From positions 1 through 37,014 of the forward strand of contig JAUSKT010000011.1 in assembly GCA_030646915.1 (NCBI GenBank): a DNA stretch of 37,014 nt, written 5' to 3'. Positions 17,009 to 29,873 of the stretch are shown here, in pieces. The position numbers and the translations under genes were made by a program. How positions within the stretch are numbered: the stretch's first letter is position 1; each line of letters begins with the position of its first letter. This DNA is from a bacterium (GTDB taxonomy: Bacteria; Patescibacteriota; Minisyncoccia; UBA6257; 02-FULL-45-10c). Below the pieces are notes generated by a model. It was not told the DNA's origin, did no database searches, and worked only from the letters and a program-made list of their open reading frames with translations.

Positions 17009-17153
17009 AATGAAACTCCACAGACTAAAGTCCGGGGTTTCTTTATATCGCAAGCTTCGCATATCCGGCACTACACCTAGGTGTAGTGCCGGATATGCCA
17101 ACTATTCCCGGCCCGAAGGCCGTGGTTTTAGTAGGGTATTTAGGCATATAAAA
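17009..17153. repeat. family II palindromic element, copy 1 (145 nt)
   Basis: Homologous end to end with 23798-23942; central perfect 40-bp palindrome 17059-17098. Confidence 0.9.
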
Positions 17154-23241: not shown

Positions 23242-23643
23242 CTAGCCGAGAATGGCTAGCTTAGAAAGTAACTGCCCCTCTTTCTTTTCCATACTAATTC
23301 TATCATTCTTCTTTTCATGGTCATAGCCTAGAATGTGCAAAACTCCGTGGACCAGCATCAAATTCAAATCTTCCTTATGTTTTTGAATATATGCCAGGTC
23401 TAAATACACTTCTCCAAGCTTATTGCCTGGAAAATTTTTCGGCGCTGTAAAAGAAAGCACATTAGTGGATTTATTTTTCCCGCGGAAACGCTTATTCAAA
23501 GACTGCATCCTCTGGCTTTTAATCAAAAAGACTTCTGCTAGTCCCCTTTTAGGCAAAAATTTGCCAAGTTTCTTGGAAATTTTTCCTAATTCTTTTGCCG
23601 GCATTGCGGCAGATTTATCTAAAACTATTACTTCTAATTTCAT
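23242..23643 (-). CDS. ybeY: endoribonuclease YbeY
   Basis: NKRFRGKNKSTNVLSFTAP, LMLVHGVLHILGYDHE (HGxLHxxGYDH). Confidence 0.96.
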   Translation of the reverse strand: MKLEVIVLDKSAAMPAKELGKISKKLGKFLPKRGLAEVFLIKSQRMQSLNKRFRGKNKSTNVLSFTAPKNFPGNKLGEVYLDLAYIQKHKEDLNLMLVHGVLHILGYDHEKKNDRISMEKKEGQLLSKLAILG

Positions 23644-23773
23644 CCCGTTAGAGACAGGTCATCTTTAGATGACCATAACTCGGCCGCCTAAATAACTCCT
23701 GACGATTAATTATTAATACAAATTTTTGATAAATACTAAACATAGTTTGATTGTCTCTAACGGGATTCATAGA
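23642..23773 (-). repeat. family I (NPVR) inverted-repeat element, copy C
   Basis: ATCCCGTTAGAGACA / TGTCTCTAACGGGAT 15-bp arms; mini-ORF MNPVRDNQTMFSIYQKF...TCL* ends 4 nt before the ybeY ATG. Confidence 0.88.
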
Positions 23774-23797
23774 ATAGTAAAAGTATAGCAAAATAAA

Positions 23798-23942
23798 AAT
23801 GAAACTCCACAGCCTGAAGGCTGTGGTTTCTTTATATCGCAAGCTTCGCTTGTCTAGCACTACACCTAGGTGTAGTGCTAGATATGCCAACTATCCCCGG
23901 CCTTTAGGCCAGGGTTTTAGTAAAGTATTTCGGCATATAAAA
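23798..23942. repeat. family II palindromic element, copy 2 (145 nt)
   Basis: GAAACTCCACAGCCTGAAGGCTGTGGTTTC, near-perfect 40-nt palindrome centred on CCTAGG, third hairpin CCCCGGCCTTTAGGCCAGGG. Confidence 0.9.
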
Positions 23943-24485: not shown

Positions 24486-24633
24486 AAAGACGCCATTATA
24501 TTTTGTAGAGAAACTCCGCAGGCAGAAAAAGCTTGTTATCCCGCTACGCGGGATTTTTTCTGCCGAGGGGTAGCGGGCTTTTGCCGCTAGAGCAAAAGAA
24601 CCGCGGTTCTCATAGAAATATAATGGCGTCTTT
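24486..24633. repeat. family III structured element, copy D
   Basis: 18-bp perfect outer arms 24486-24503 / 24616-24633; GCCGAGGGGTAG core at 24562-24573; two inner stems. Confidence 0.85.
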
Positions 24634-25072
24634 AAGAAACTAATTTTTCTTTCACTACCTCACTTATCATTTTCCCATCCGCCTTCCCCTTCAATTCTGC
24701 CATTACCGCTTTCATCACCAATCCCTGATTGCTTTTATCAGCAAGTCCAGCTAAAACTTTCTCTACTACCGTCACCACTTCTTCTTTAGACATTTGCTTC
24801 GGCAAATAAGATTCCACAAATACAAGTTCTTTGCGTTCATTCTCCGCCAAGTCCGACCGTCCTCCTTTTTCAAAAGCCTCAATTGATTCTTTTCTTTTTT
24901 TCGCTTCCCGCCGCAAAACCTCTATTACCTCTTCATCGCTCAAAACCGCGTCTTTTCCTTTTTCAATTGCCCGATTTTTTACAGCAGCATTAAGCATGCG
25001 TAAAACTCCGAGCTTTTCGGCATTCCCAGATTTCATCGCTTCTTTTATATCTTGTAAGATCTTTGATTCCAT
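24632..25072 (-). CDS. GatB/YqeY domain protein
   Basis: DIKEAMKSGNAEKLGVLRMLNAAVKN...KQMSKEEV...KGKADGKMISEVVKEKL. Confidence 0.95.
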   Translation of the reverse strand: MESKILQDIKEAMKSGNAEKLGVLRMLNAAVKNRAIEKGKDAVLSDEEVIEVLRREAKKRKESIEAFEKGGRSDLAENERKELVFVESYLPKQMSKEEVVTVVEKVLAGLADKSNQGLVMKAVMAELKGKADGKMISEVVKEKLVS

Positions 25073-25077
25073 TTAGC

Positions 25078-25287
25078 TTAAACTAAGCCTAATTTTCTCG
25101 CTTTCATTACTTCTTTTTTCTTTTCATCCCGATACATTGCCGCTAGTTTTCTTTTAGAACGATTTTTAGGCCGATGGCGAAAACGCCGTTTTTTTGCCTC
25201 ACGTAAAATACCGCTTTGCTGAACTTTTTTAGAAAAGCGGTACATCAATGAGCCAATTGTTTCCCCTTCTTTTTTCTTTACTTGCAT
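25078..25287 (-). CDS. rpsU: 30S ribosomal protein bS21
   Basis: EGETIGSLMYRFSKKVQQSGILREAKKRRF. Confidence 0.93.
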   Translation of the reverse strand: MQVKKKEGETIGSLMYRFSKKVQQSGILREAKKRRFRHRPKNRSKRKLAAMYRDEKKKEVMKARKLGLV

Positions 25288-25313
25288 AGGTTGTTATTAT
25301 TGCAGATTTATTA

Positions 25314-25679
25314 TTATTTATCAAGACTCGGATGAGGCAGGATATCAATATCCTTTTTATTATTCCAACCCCCTAATAAATGAAGATGCAAATGGTCAAT
25401 TACCTGCCCGCCCTCTTTGCCAACATTAAAAACTAATTTATAACCTTTTAATCCGAATTTAATAGCCAATTCTTTAGCAGTAAAAATCAGCTTAGAAATT
25501 ACCTCTTTATGATTGCCTTCCAGATGAGCTATGGATTGAATATGTTCTTTGGGAATCACTAAATAATGAACCGGTGCCGATGGCTGTATATCTTTAAAAG
25601 CCATTACCTCCAAATCTTCAAATACTGCGCTTGATGGAATTTCCTTTTTAGCTATACCGCAAAATACGCAAGTAGTCAT
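25314..25679 (-). CDS. HIT family (histidine triad) protein
   Basis: CVFCGIAKKEIPSS, GGQVIDHLHLHLLGG (HxHxH). Confidence 0.97.
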   Translation of the reverse strand: MTTCVFCGIAKKEIPSSAVFEDLEVMAFKDIQPSAPVHYLVIPKEHIQSIAHLEGNHKEVISKLIFTAKELAIKFGLKGYKLVFNVGKEGGQVIDHLHLHLLGGWNNKKDIDILPHPSLDK

Positions 25680-25682
25680 TTA

Positions 25683-26981
25683 TTACTTTAGCCTCTTTTT
25701 AACTTCACTGACAAATTTCCTTAACGGCACAGTTTCCTGAACGCTATTTTGAAGATCTCTGATAATAATTGATTCTTCAAAAACTTCTTTCTGCCCTAAA
25801 ATTAAAGCATAATCCGCCTGCGCCTTACTGGAAGAACGAAGCTGGGCGCCCAAAGAATCCCTGCCAAGAGATTCTAAAACTGAAATGCCTTCTTCCCGCA
25901 ATTCCTCCATTAGAACTAAGCTTTTCTTTTTAGCTGCTTCTCCAATGTGGATAAAAAATACTTTTGGCCGGCTCCGCAAACCAAGCGCGACATTAGTAGT
26001 TTTCATAATTTCTACCACCCGCTCAATTCCTATGGCGCCGCCGATTCCAGAAGATTGCCGGACACCGAACATTTCCATCAAATAGTCATAGCGTCCGCCG
26101 CTGGCAATCGCAAAATCAAACTTTTCGCCGGTTTCTGAAGTTACTCCGGTAAAAAATTCAAAGACTGTGCGATTGTAATAATCTAAGCCGCGCACTAAAT
26201 AATTATCCAATTCATAAGGCAATTTTAATTCTTCCAGATACTCCAAAACCTTTTTAAAATGCTTATTACAGGTAATGCAAAGATTTTCCAGCATGATCGG
26301 AGCATTTACTTTATACTCCTGACAATCTGAATTCTTGCAATCTAAAAGGCGGAGCGGGTTTTCCCGTAGACGGCGCCGGCAATCCCTGCAAAGCTTAACC
26401 GCCAAATCCTTATAATAATCCGTCAATTTTTTCCGGTAATTCGGACGGCACACTCTGCAGCCGATGCTGTTGATATGAAGGCTAAGATTCGTTATCTTCA
26501 GGCGATTCAATAATTTAAATATAACCAACATTAACTGAGCTTCATAAATCGGATCATCATCTCCGCCTAAAATTTCAAAACCTGCCTGGTTAAATTGCCT
26601 GTACCGTCCGGCCTGCGGATGTTCCTTCCGGAACATCAACCCGGAATAAAAAAGTTTCAGCGGCTGGCCAAGATGACTCAGTCCATGCTGGACATAAGAA
26701 CGGACAATTGAAGCAGTTCCTTCCGGACGGAGCACTAAACGATCCCCCGAACCGCTTTTAAAAACAAACATTTGTTTTTCAACAATATCTGAAGTTTCTC
26801 CAAGCGAATTCTCAAAAATTTCCGCCCGTTCCAATAAAGTAGTTTCAATTCTAGAAAAATTATAGGAATCGGCAATCGCCTGCGTTTCTTTCCTGACTTT
26901 ATCCCACCATTGCTGATCTTGCGGAAGAATGTCATGCATTCCCTTGGGTGAATTTAAATTTTGTATTTTAGATTTAGCCAT
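25683..26981 (-). CDS. hisS: histidyl-tRNA synthetase
   Basis: PKGMHDILP, LRPEGTASIVRSY, FRKEHPQAGRYRQFNQAGFEILG, GGRYDYL. Confidence 0.97.
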   Translation of the reverse strand: MAKSKIQNLNSPKGMHDILPQDQQWWDKVRKETQAIADSYNFSRIETTLLERAEIFENSLGETSDIVEKQMFVFKSGSGDRLVLRPEGTASIVRSYVQHGLSHLGQPLKLFYSGLMFRKEHPQAGRYRQFNQAGFEILGGDDDPIYEAQLMLVIFKLLNRLKITNLSLHINSIGCRVCRPNYRKKLTDYYKDLAVKLCRDCRRRLRENPLRLLDCKNSDCQEYKVNAPIMLENLCITCNKHFKKVLEYLEELKLPYELDNYLVRGLDYYNRTVFEFFTGVTSETGEKFDFAIASGGRYDYLMEMFGVRQSSGIGGAIGIERVVEIMKTTNVALGLRSRPKVFFIHIGEAAKKKSLVLMEELREEGISVLESLGRDSLGAQLRSSSKAQADYALILGQKEVFEESIIIRDLQNSVQETVPLRKFVSEVKKRLK

Positions 26982-26992
26982 TAAATTTAAAC

Positions 26993-27535
26993 TTAATTAT
27001 ACGAAAAAGCTTTAATTTCTGTAACTGGCAATAATCTCAATCTGACTATGCCAATAATATATTTTTCCTTTAATACCCCCCAGCTCCGGGAATCATAACT
27101 ATAATTCCTATTATCTCCAAGAACAAAATATTCGTCCTTTCCTAATTCTTTAGTAATATTGCCGGAAGTTTTTACTCCAAGAGATAAATATTTTTCTCCC
27201 ACCAAGAATCCATTTAAGTTTTCTTTATTAAAAATTTTTACTTCGCCGTTTTGAATAACAATCTTTTCTCCCGGCAAGCCCAAAACTCTTTTAATATAGT
27301 AAGTGGAAGGATCATTCGGATATTTAAACACAATAACTTCTTCCCGCCCCGGCTCCCTAAATCGATAACTTATCTCATCAATTAATAAATAATTCCCCGA
27401 ATCAAAATTGGGTTCCATGCTGGCGCCGCTAACCAAAAACGGCTGGACTAAAAAGGTTCGGATTATAAAAACCGTAACTACAGCTACAATAACTACTTCT
27501 AGTACTTCCCAGACTGCGAGCAAAAATGACTTCAT
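26993..27535 (-). CDS. lepB: signal peptidase I
   Basis: LVSGASMEPNFDSGNYLLIDE, YYIKRVLGLPGEKI, FVLGDNRNYSYDSRSWG. Confidence 0.96.
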   Translation of the reverse strand: MKSFLLAVWEVLEVVIVAVVTVFIIRTFLVQPFLVSGASMEPNFDSGNYLLIDEISYRFREPGREEVIVFKYPNDPSTYYIKRVLGLPGEKIVIQNGEVKIFNKENLNGFLVGEKYLSLGVKTSGNITKELGKDEYFVLGDNRNYSYDSRSWGVLKEKYIIGIVRLRLLPVTEIKAFSYN

Positions 27536-27645
27536 CCCGTTTAGAAAATTAAACTCGACGCCTTGCGACCATAAGACTTCCGATAATGCTTGAAAGAATT
27601 TTTACTATTGATAAACATACTAGTTAATTTTCTAACGGGATTCAT
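27534..27645 (-). repeat. family I (NPVR) inverted-repeat element, copy B
   Basis: ATGAATCCCGTTAGAAAATTAACT...AGTTTAATTTTCTAAACGGGATG; mini-ORF 27541-27645 ends 5 nt before the lepB ATG. Confidence 0.9.
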
Positions 27646-27679
27646 AGCTCAATAGTTAAAATTTTAATATAATAAGAAG

Positions 27680-28165
27680 ATGATTACAAGCAAACCAAAA
27701 TTCAAGCTTATTATAGGCCTAGGCAATCCTGATGCTAAATATAAAAATACCTATCATAATGTAGGGCATTTATTTGTTGACTATTTAGACAGTCGAGTGT
27801 CGAAAGTTGAAAGTCGCTTATTGAAGTCTGATGTCTATATGAATGAATCGGGTTCGTTTGTAAAAAAAGAAATGAAAAAATCCAGCGCAAAACCGGAAGA
27901 ATTATTAGTAATCCACGATGATAGCGATATCACTGTTGGCAATTATAAATTATCATTTGATCGTGGCGCGGCCGGACATCACGGCATTGAAAGCATCCAA
28001 GCCACAATTAAGACCAATAACTTTTGGCGCTTGCGAATTGGCATCCGCCCAGCAAAAGAAAAAGTGCGGCAAAAATCCGAGGAGTTTGTTTTAAAAAAAA
28101 TCAGCTCCGCAAATAAAAAAATATTTGAGGAAGTTTTTGAAAAATCAACTACAGAAATTATTTAA
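27680..28165 (+). CDS. pth: peptidyl-tRNA hydrolase
   Basis: LIIGLGNPDAKYKNTYHNVGHLFVD, VIHDDSDITVGNYKLSFDRGAAGHHGIESI. Confidence 0.93.
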   Translation: MITSKPKFKLIIGLGNPDAKYKNTYHNVGHLFVDYLDSRVSKVESRLLKSDVYMNESGSFVKKEMKKSSAKPEELLVIHDDSDITVGNYKLSFDRGAAGHHGIESIQATIKTNNFWRLRIGIRPAKEKVRQKSEEFVLKKISSANKKIFEEVFEKSTTEII

Positions 28166-28172
28166 AAATCAA

Positions 28173-28190
28173 AAGCCGCGCAAGCGGCTT
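28173..28190. terminator. hairpin next to family III copy E
   Basis: AAGCCGC gcaa GCGGCTT. Confidence 0.6.
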
Positions 28191-28216
28191 ACCTACTTGC
28201 ACAGCAAACACCGAAA

Positions 28217-28358
28217 GCTTTAACTATCTGTTGTGCGGCAACTACGGAGGCGCTAAAAGCTAGGTCTTTTGCAAAGCAAAAGTTTTAGCGCCGAGGGGTA
28301 GGCGCGTTTCGCCGCAGGAGCGAAACGACGCCGGTGCCGGTAAGCAGATAGTTAAAGC
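28217..28358. repeat. family III structured element, copy E
   Basis: 14-bp perfect outer arms GCTTTAACTATCTG / CAGATAGTTAAAGC; GCCGAGGGGTAG core at 28290-28301. Confidence 0.85.
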
Positions 28359-28361
28359 GAC

Positions 28362-29873
28362 TTAAATCTTGAAAGTTAAGGTAAAAGAAACCGTCCCGTC
28401 AGCATTAGTAATAATATTAGAAAGTGGCAGAGAAACATTTTCAAAACCAGCTTTTATCAAAGCGTTTTTAAAATCAATAGTGGAAGCTTCATCGCTAGAA
28501 CGCCCCGAAAGCAACGCAGAAGATCTGCCTTTATCAATAAAAATTCTAGTCAGCACAATGTTCTTTTTTAAAAGCTCATTAATTTTTGAAAGCAGAGCTG
28601 AGAAAGCGGGGCTTCCATTTTTTGCGATTTCGGCTTTAGCTAATAATTGGTTAAAAAAAATAGCTTTTTCCTGAAGCTGAGCGGCTTCCTGTCCTCCGGG
28701 CGCAACTAATACTTCTTTTAATTTCTGTTCCAGTTGGCTGGAATTATATTTTAAAAAAGTATCCGAGAGAAGAAAAATAAAAACTAAAAATCCCAAACTG
28801 GTTAAAATTATATTCCTCCAGATTTTTATAAAAAACGCTATCTCTGATTGCAAATAAGCTTTTTCCGTTCCAACTTCTGCCAAGCTGATTAAATTATCCG
28901 ATGACCGCGATATTTTTCCGCGAAGCGCGCTCCCCAAAACGCCAAACCAGGATGGCGGCAAATCTGTAAAATCACGCAATTTTAATTCTATTACTTGAAA
29001 AGAAAAATTATCTTTGAGCAATTTAGCAATTTCAATATTAAGAGCCTGGGTAATAAGAATTAAATTGTCTAATTTGCCCCCCCAATGATTGCTGTAAAAA
29101 TTTGCCACTTTCCTTACCTCGCGGATAATAGTCTCCTTAAAATCTTCAAATAAAATTTCTCGCGCTATGTTTCCTTCTTCTTTAATCAATTTCCAAGAAG
29201 TAAAATAATCAAAATATAAATTGCCATTAGCTAAAACCATAAAATTTATTCCATCGCTGCCAATATTTAAAACCACCTGCGGCTTTAAAGGATCGATTCC
29301 AGCGGCCAAGCTTTCAACGGTTCTGGTAATCGCCAGGGCGGGGAATTCCACTGCTACCGGCACAAAATTAGCTTCTTTTAAAGCTTTATCATAGTCATCA
29401 ATAATACTTTTATTCGCAAAAGCTCCCAATAATTCAATCTTCCCGTCTTTTTCATGAAATCCGACTTTTTGCCAATCGGCATATCCGGATTTCAAATCAA
29501 TCGGGGAAATGCTTTCTAAATTTAATTGCGCGACTTCTGATAATTTTTCTTCTGAAAAAGCCGGGGTGCTGAAAATTTGCGCATAAACATTGACTGACGG
29601 CACAATTAAAATCACCGGGATTTTTCCTTGAGTCGAAACAAATTGACTGCGTAATTTTTTAAGATTGGCTACAAATTTTATCCGGTCTTTAATTTTGCCA
29701 TCTTCAATAATGCCCGGTTCTAAAGTTACTGAGGCTTTACGGATTTGATTGCCTTCCAGCCGTAAAATTCTGATTGCCACGTCTTTGATTTCCAAACCGG
29801 CAATCTCTTCTTTTGGCTGAAGTAATTTCTGAAAAAAAGCTCCGGCTCGATTCATCCAAAGTTTAATATCCAT
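28362..29873 (-). CDS. PilM-PilN-like fusion (type IV pilus assembly)
   Basis: N-terminal PilM-like actin fold (VAIRILRLEGNQI, VVLNIGSDGINFMVLANGNLYFDYFTSW), then TM and PilN-like region. Confidence 0.75.
   Translation of the reverse strand: MDIKLWMNRAGAFFQKLLQPKEEIAGLEIKDVAIRILRLEGNQIRKASVTLEPGIIEDGKIKDRIKFVANLKKLRSQFVSTQGKIPVILIVPSVNVYAQIFSTPAFSEEKLSEVAQLNLESISPIDLKSGYADWQKVGFHEKDGKIELLGAFANKSIIDDYDKALKEANFVPVAVEFPALAITRTVESLAAGIDPLKPQVVLNIGSDGINFMVLANGNLYFDYFTSWKLIKEEGNIAREILFEDFKETIIREVRKVANFYSNHWGGKLDNLILITQALNIEIAKLLKDNFSFQVIELKLRDFTDLPPSWFGVLGSALRGKISRSSDNLISLAEVGTEKAYLQSEIAFFIKIWRNIILTSLGFLVFIFLLSDTFLKYNSSQLEQKLKEVLVAPGGQEAAQLQEKAIFFNQLLAKAEIAKNGSPAFSALLSKINELLKKNIVLTRIFIDKGRSSALLSGRSSDEASTIDFKNALIKAGFENVSLPLSNIITNADGTVSFTLTFKI

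Follow-up and report, generated by a model that had tools for sequence, protein, structure and literature searches.

Mobile hairpins of organelles (double-hairpin elements and GC clusters) are small folded elements, rich in G+C, that occupy spacers, introns, and rRNA genes. In bacteria, the palindromic elements of Rickettsia (RPEs) are ~150-bp palindromes of several families that occur in many copies in small AT-rich genomes, often in frame in housekeeping open reading frames (ORFs) as well as in intergenic regions (PMC10969869), and in the attC sites of integrons it is the bottom strand that folds, extrahelical bases being important for recognition (PMC3053210). Here we report on two repeats (positions 24486 to 24633 and 28217 to 28358) in a 37,014-nt contig of a member of the Patescibacteriota (JAUSKT010000011.1; the whole contig is referred to as the window). 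An earlier note, made from the letters of the window alone, had singled out these repeats as a structured family without assigning a function to it, and their sequences and coordinates are as it gave them. We consider it reasonably probable (roughly 70%) that they are two copies of a small noncoding mobile DNA element of Patescibacteria, which works like an RPE or a miniature inverted-repeat transposable element (MITE). The element family is undescribed so far and occurs in many Patescibacteria with tiny genomes.

Like RPEs, the element is a palindromic unit of ~100 to 150 bp found in frame within protein genes (five cases), a likeness drawn by description, whereas it belongs to another phylum, conserves a fold and not a peptide, and is read on either strand in its in-gene copies; order-wide covariation, strand asymmetry, nesting, and copies in rRNA introns also distinguish it from RPEs. 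It shares with MITEs and with repetitive extragenic palindromic (REP) sequences and bacterial interspersed mosaic elements (BIMEs) a short, putatively nonautonomous, intergenic, hairpin-forming, and multicopy character, and with the MITEs of DDE transposons the terminal inverted repeats (here the outer arms, P0). Unlike MITEs, however, it shows no target-site duplication and forms a three-way junction rather than simple inverted repeats, and unlike REP/RAYT systems or IS200/IS605 derivatives, most of its carriers lack a Y1/RAYT transposase. As with attC, the fold is specific to a single strand, antisense to the upstream gene, and located behind a stop codon; in contrast to attC, the core is conserved and the outer arms vary (the reverse of attC), neither a variable-center layout nor cassettes are present, and each genome has only one Xer-sized tyrosine recombinase. 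Compared by description with the organelle hairpins, the three-way junction and the conserved bulge and loop are specific to the Patescibacteria element as far as tested.

Conserved fold and covariation

Both copies in the window share one three-way-junction hairpin fold. With RNA parameters, the minimum free energy was -75.8 kcal/mol for copy 1 (z score, -10.5) and -72.7 kcal/mol for copy 2 (z score, -7.9), and 0 of 200 shuffled sequences folded as well; DNA parameters gave z scores of -11.0 and -7.5, respectively. Both copies folded far better than shuffled sequences with RNA or DNA parameters alike and on either strand.

In the family, the element measures ~135 to 150 bp from arm to arm (~140 bases). 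The P0 arms are followed by a 3x3 loop (GUA/RUA), a 5-bp P1, and a three-way junction with two branches. The first consists of P1b (ACUNC/GGGGU), a GCA-or-GGA/GA loop, a 10-bp P2, a 7-nt bulge (GCUUGGU), and an apical hairpin that varies between copies, and the second is P3 (4 plus 7 to 8 bp) capped by the 7-nt loop CGCWRGA (consensus CGCUGGA). The nearly invariant letters are those of the C-GGA/GA loop, the GCUUGGU bulge, the A before P3, the CGCNGGA loop, and the A and GG after P3, the bulge G, U, and G being kept in at least 82 of 84 sequences. The earlier note had overlooked the 5-bp P1 and the short P1b (ACTNC/GGGGT), and the 4 nt that it placed before P3 are part of the P3 pairing (GCGG/CCGC versus GGCG/CGCC).

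P2 and P3 covary between the two copies, as had been claimed, and the same holds far beyond them. Among eight copies from the window's genome, double changes were found at 24 of 43 pairs, against 13.3 in shuffles. In 82 distinct sequences, 96.2% of the cells were paired and covariation was seen at 43 of 43 pairs, with 1,251 double-change cells compared to 334 ± 20 in shuffles and 189 to 238 in slid controls; the covariation score was 0.930, versus 0.226 when shuffled and about 0.1 in slid controls. RNAalifold on its own arrived at the same fold, and 93.3% pairing was obtained for a further set of 32 matches, which is only partly out of sample (part of it came from genomes outside the model building). 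Since the alignments were fitted to the model, the shuffle and slide controls outweigh the raw pairing figures. The fold is strictly conserved while almost all letters change.

The P0 arms are at least ~12 bp in nearly all copies (roughly 12 to 15 bp in in-gene insertions), and 97.4% of P0 cells are paired, i.e., terminal inverted repeats are present. The earlier note regarded the arms as perfect but unrelated and locus specific; this is true of the distal part only, whereas the inner ~8 bp are part of the unit and covary within subfamilies. Distal arms differ between similar cores (loci L090 and L098 of genome G269), and flanks beyond P0 pair mutually, beating 20 mismatched controls in 18 of 87 copies (4.1 expected). 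The distal arms may be taken up from the target, may be copied during insertion, or may owe their perfect pairing to templated correction. Preexisting terminators as their general source were rejected at the dut locus, where the empty site is only ~15 bp. Besides, the variable P2 apical hairpin is swapped between copies of the window's genome independently of the remainder (CCGAGCACATAA hairpin in L003 and L007, CCTGAGCTTGTCGAAGG in L005).

Copy number and distribution

The core GCCGAGGGGTAG occurs exactly seven times in the window's genome and never reversed. A first covariance model, built from eight copies of this genome, found 10 copies in it and matches in 67 of 151 genomes (its own and relatives). 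Copy numbers per matching genome ranged from 1 to 20, and no more than 20 candidates were scored in any genome. The search that the earlier note had proposed thus yielded further compensatory copies in the genome itself and in relatives. A refined model detected the element in 24 genomes, from 23 genera, of a phylum-wide set of 380; because genomes were sampled and filters were strict, these frequencies are lower bounds. In one genome, G006, 27 distinct copies were seen.

Rfam gave nothing at the gathering threshold in the window besides one tRNA, and at an E value of ≤1 around the copies it gave two subthreshold matches only, both outside the copies; a named RNA family was ruled out on this basis. 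The view that the repeats form a structured family with compensatory stems and match no named RNA is therefore strongly supported by the negative Rfam result and the covariation across copies. An Rfam match or a lack of further compensatory copies had been named as findings that would speak against it, and neither occurred. The element had no match in IMG/VR, phage, and plasmid searches, and a phage or plasmid origin was rejected. Pattern matches in Actinobacteria, Rubrobacter, and Pseudomonas fail the refined model at an E value of ≤1e-4 and were taken as chance; the pattern search returned no record of Rickettsia. L008 and L009 were rejected as copies, having only the 12-mer in common.

Evidence for mobility

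Multiple copies, polymorphic insertion, nesting, and insertion within genes and introns point to an element that behaves as mobile DNA rather than as a gene for an RNA. Within a single genus of the family, units of 126 nt that are 93 to 94% identical are found at unrelated loci in different species, and in this genus the unit forms the tip of a larger related hairpin, which again has outer arms of its own that differ. At dut, the spacer to the next gene is only ~15 bp (an empty site) in two congeners, whereas two others hold the unit and its surroundings (~230 bp). Likewise, the site behind the tyrosine recombinase gene (Xer/tRNA locus) is filled in G002 and empty in its congeners G014 and G016. 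In G006, several copies are nested in remnants of another copy. Insertions might persist where they do least harm, i.e., just behind stop codons, at hairpin tips, in peripheral loops of introns, and in frame in surface loops of proteins.

Insertion sites

The right end lies at most 55 nt from the stop codon of an opposite-strand gene in 25 of 48 copies, a count that, like the other gene-context counts, rests on simple ORF calls. The position 3' of a gene emphasized in the earlier note is a strong preference, but not a rule, as copies are also located in 16S introns, in other copies, and in coding genes. The preference could indicate a host-maintained element of 3' untranslated regions or terminators, in which inserted units are kept since their long hairpin terminates or shields the mRNA of the upstream gene. 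Some copies do lie within terminator-like A-run/T-run hairpins, and three loci are orthologous between the window's genome and G006, which belong to different genera, with double changes in P0, P2, and P3. We nevertheless regard this explanation as improbable: the gene-sense RNA is the wrong strand and would carry A-C mismatches, T-runs are not enriched at the arms, the dut congeners have the ~15-bp gap without a terminator, and insertions in ORFs and rRNA introns are left unexplained.

At the 16S-788 insertion site, a copy is antisense to the rRNA in three genomes of three families. Rfam identified a group I intron core in two of these three insertions, and the third has a recognizable intron-like P9 region. 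The 16S genes concerned (L072, L073, and L074) have large insertions at E. coli position ~788 that hold group I introns (a small ORF is present in one of them), and the copy is within the 5' part of the insertion.

In five genomes, in-frame copies are found in conserved, essential genes, namely, those for RecG, tRNA-guanine transglycosylase (TGT), cysteine desulfurase, phosphohexomutase, and MnmA, adding about 44 to 51 residues; four of the five are antisense. In RecG and MnmA, the alignment gap relative to a solved homologue coincides with the element, and the gap in cysteine desulfurase agrees. The encoded peptides differ in the strand and frame from which they are read and show no apparent relationship to each other, so that what is conserved is the nucleic acid fold and not a peptide. 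A second short lineage-specific insert (residues 213 to 240) is present in the cysteine desulfurase of L089 besides the element.

Patescibacteria are thought to be streamlined, yet the element passes 25 copies in one ~700-kb genome and sits in recG, tgt, mnmA, and 16S introns. It accounts for some of the lineage-specific inserts in proteins and rRNA of the candidate phyla radiation (CPR), and it is worth masking or annotating in CPR genomes.

Folding strand

The non-Watson-Crick pairs on the plus strand comprise 124 G·T and 27 A·C, and G·T outnumbers A·C whatever the directions of the neighboring genes; this excess points to the plus strand as the folding strand. The deamination bias expected for coding or leading strands has the opposite sign, and the excess is found in all gene contexts; a mutational strand bias was rejected as its cause. 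Replication-strand orientation was rejected as well: the elements of G006 track replichores, but the informative exceptions follow the neighboring gene.

Alternatively, the plus strand might be a structured small RNA (a regulatory RNA, a ribozyme, or a riboswitch-like RNA) encoded by a multicopy gene, with the outer arms and a T-run as its own terminator. The strand-asymmetric G-U pairs, the RNA-typical conserved internal loops and bulges, and the convergent placement relative to the neighboring gene would all suit such an RNA. We found no enrichment of sigma70-like promoters upstream of the plus strand in 76 to 87 copies, although the power of this analysis is modest. Furthermore, copies that are antisense in 16S introns, mostly antisense in coding genes, nested, or missing from congeners, together with the lack of an Rfam relative, make a small-RNA gene unlikely. 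Most neighboring genes transcribe the other strand, and given this and the lack of a promoter signal, folded single-stranded DNA (ssDNA) is the simplest reading. Thus, one strand probably acts folded, and we infer that ssDNA is its acting form.

Recognition and candidate enzymes

The stems vary freely yet pair, whereas the junction letters are genome specific: of the 10 copies in the window's genome, 9 have GAGGGGTAG as their P1b strand, and 26 of the 27 copies in G006 have GAGGCGTAG, even though three loci are orthologous between these two genomes. Such a pattern would fit a factor acting in trans that recognizes the shape together with the loop letters, and gene conversion among copies would give it, too. 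As a mobile DNA, the element would be nonautonomous; its folded plus strand, as ssDNA, would be acted on by a recombinase or transposase supplied in trans, which would recognize the fold along with the conserved loops and not the stem sequence. One Xer-sized tyrosine recombinase (302 to 322 amino acids) is encoded in 9 of 10 carrier genomes. Only tentatively would we go further and propose a phylum-scale mobile class identified solely by a single-strand fold (ssDNA or RNA), the shape of which is read by a host or other recombinase, possibly the single Xer, coevolving with the loops, and which would insert itself at hairpin tips, in rRNA introns, and in coding sequences.

Several results weigh against a mobile DNA element. 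No mobilizing enzyme was found in the carriers by searches for Y1 transposases and reverse transcriptases: 7 of 10 carrier genomes lack the Y1 (HUH) transposase (PF01797), and 5 of 10 have no match to reverse transcriptase (RVT_1). Each is missing from many carriers, and both were rejected as mobilizers. Absence is weak evidence where the genome is incomplete (the window's own is 77% complete); the strongest cases are G006 (99% complete) for Y1 and, for reverse transcriptase, G002, G100, and G144, all of them nearly complete. In 87 copies, the mean flanking direct repeat was 2.1 nt, compared with 1.5 nt in mismatched controls, and only GA..GA was in excess, i.e., no target-site duplication was evident. 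Judging from the compensatory changes in copies that are orthologous across genera, resident copies seem to be maintained, and a neutral insertion would not need this. Finally, the bulges and the GGA/GA loop resemble RNA as much as DNA.

The RNA-like fold and the RVT_1 genes of some carriers would accord with a retro-type element that is copied by a reverse transcriptase from an RNA intermediate, but we consider this very improbable in view of the carriers without RVT_1, the lack of a promoter, and the fact that no poly(A) or target-primed reverse transcription signature was seen. If mobile, the element is one of few bacterial mobile DNA units with RNA-grade covariation (all 43 pairs), which makes both the recognizer and the strand question directly testable.

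Copies in the window and their neighborhood

The features of the two copies are listed in Table 1. Of the neighboring genes named in the earlier note, YqeY was confirmed, while the proposed PilM-PilN fusion (28362 to 29873) had no Pfam match at an E value of ≤1e-5. The GCCGCnCAAGCGGC hairpin does adjoin both copies in the window, as described, but it is not a feature of the family.

Table 1. Structural features of the two element copies in the window
Feature	Positions	Strand	Remarks
Copy 1, full unit, arm to arm	24486-24633	+	Covariance model, 142.6 bits; E, 2.9e-31
Copy 1, P0 outer arm, 5' side	24486-24504	+	Pairs with 24615-24633; distal AAAGACGCCAT locus specific, inner TATATTTT family type
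Copy 1, 3x3 internal loop GTA	24505-24507	+	Faces ATA, 24612-24614
Copy 1, P1 GAGAA and P1b ACTCC	24508-24517	+	Pair with TTCTC (24607-24611) and GGGGT (24567-24571), respectively
Copy 1, P2, 5' strand GGCAGAAAAA	24521-24530	+	3' strand, 24555-24564
Copy 1, conserved 7-nt bulge GCTTGTT	24531-24537	+	Family consensus, GCUUGGU
Copy 1, variable P2 apical hairpin ATCCCGC-TAC-GCGGGAT	24538-24554	+	Nesting site in other copies
Copy 1, P3 branch GCGG/CCGC and CTTTTGC/GCAAAAG	24573-24604	+	Loop CGCTAGA, 24585-24591
Copy 1, P0 outer arm, 3' side	24615-24633	+	End meets yqeY stop codon (yqeY, 24632-25072, minus strand)
Copy 2, full unit	28217-28358	+	Covariance model, 139.9 bits; E, 1.3e-30
Copy 2, P0 outer arm, 5' side	28217-28232	+	3' side, 28343-28358
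Copy 2, P1 CGGCA and P1b ACTAC	28236-28245	+	Pair with TGCCG (28335-28339) and GGGGT (28295-28299), respectively
Copy 2, P2 branch GGCGCTAAAA/TTTTAGCGCC	28249-28292	+	Bulge GCTAGGT, 28259-28265; apical hairpin, 28266-28282
Copy 2, P3 branch GGCG/CGCC and CGTTTCGC/GCGAAACG	28301-28332	+	Loop CGCAGGA, 28313-28319

Other repeats accompany the element in the genomes searched. A related subfamily, GAGGCCGAGCGGGCATGGT...GCGAGGCCGAG with the loop TCGCTGG, often neighbors it in the opposite orientation at a distance of 22 to 480 nt (L025:1659-1795, L031:1323-1473, L037:2117-2252, and L072:253-388). At L025, L043, L048, L049, and L093 (genomes G150, G052, G130, G017, and G352), the element or a pair of elements is bordered by inverted repeats (TGTAARATTnnnnAGCGTTGTTTACAT), as though carried by a MITE. 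Another repeat of ~100 nt, GAGGAACATCTCGGAGGCGGC...TTATGCTGTTTCC with AAATAATTATTT arms, adjoins the element at L069:3123-3250 and has many copies in G014. In the window itself, a further palindromic unit, CATCCCGTTAGA...TCTAACGGGATTCATAG, is present twice (23624 to 23784 and 27535 to 27651), again with arm continuations that differ, and there are two similar 46-bp palindromes (17056 to 17101 and 23845 to 23890) with the ends CACTACACCT/AGGTGTAGTG.

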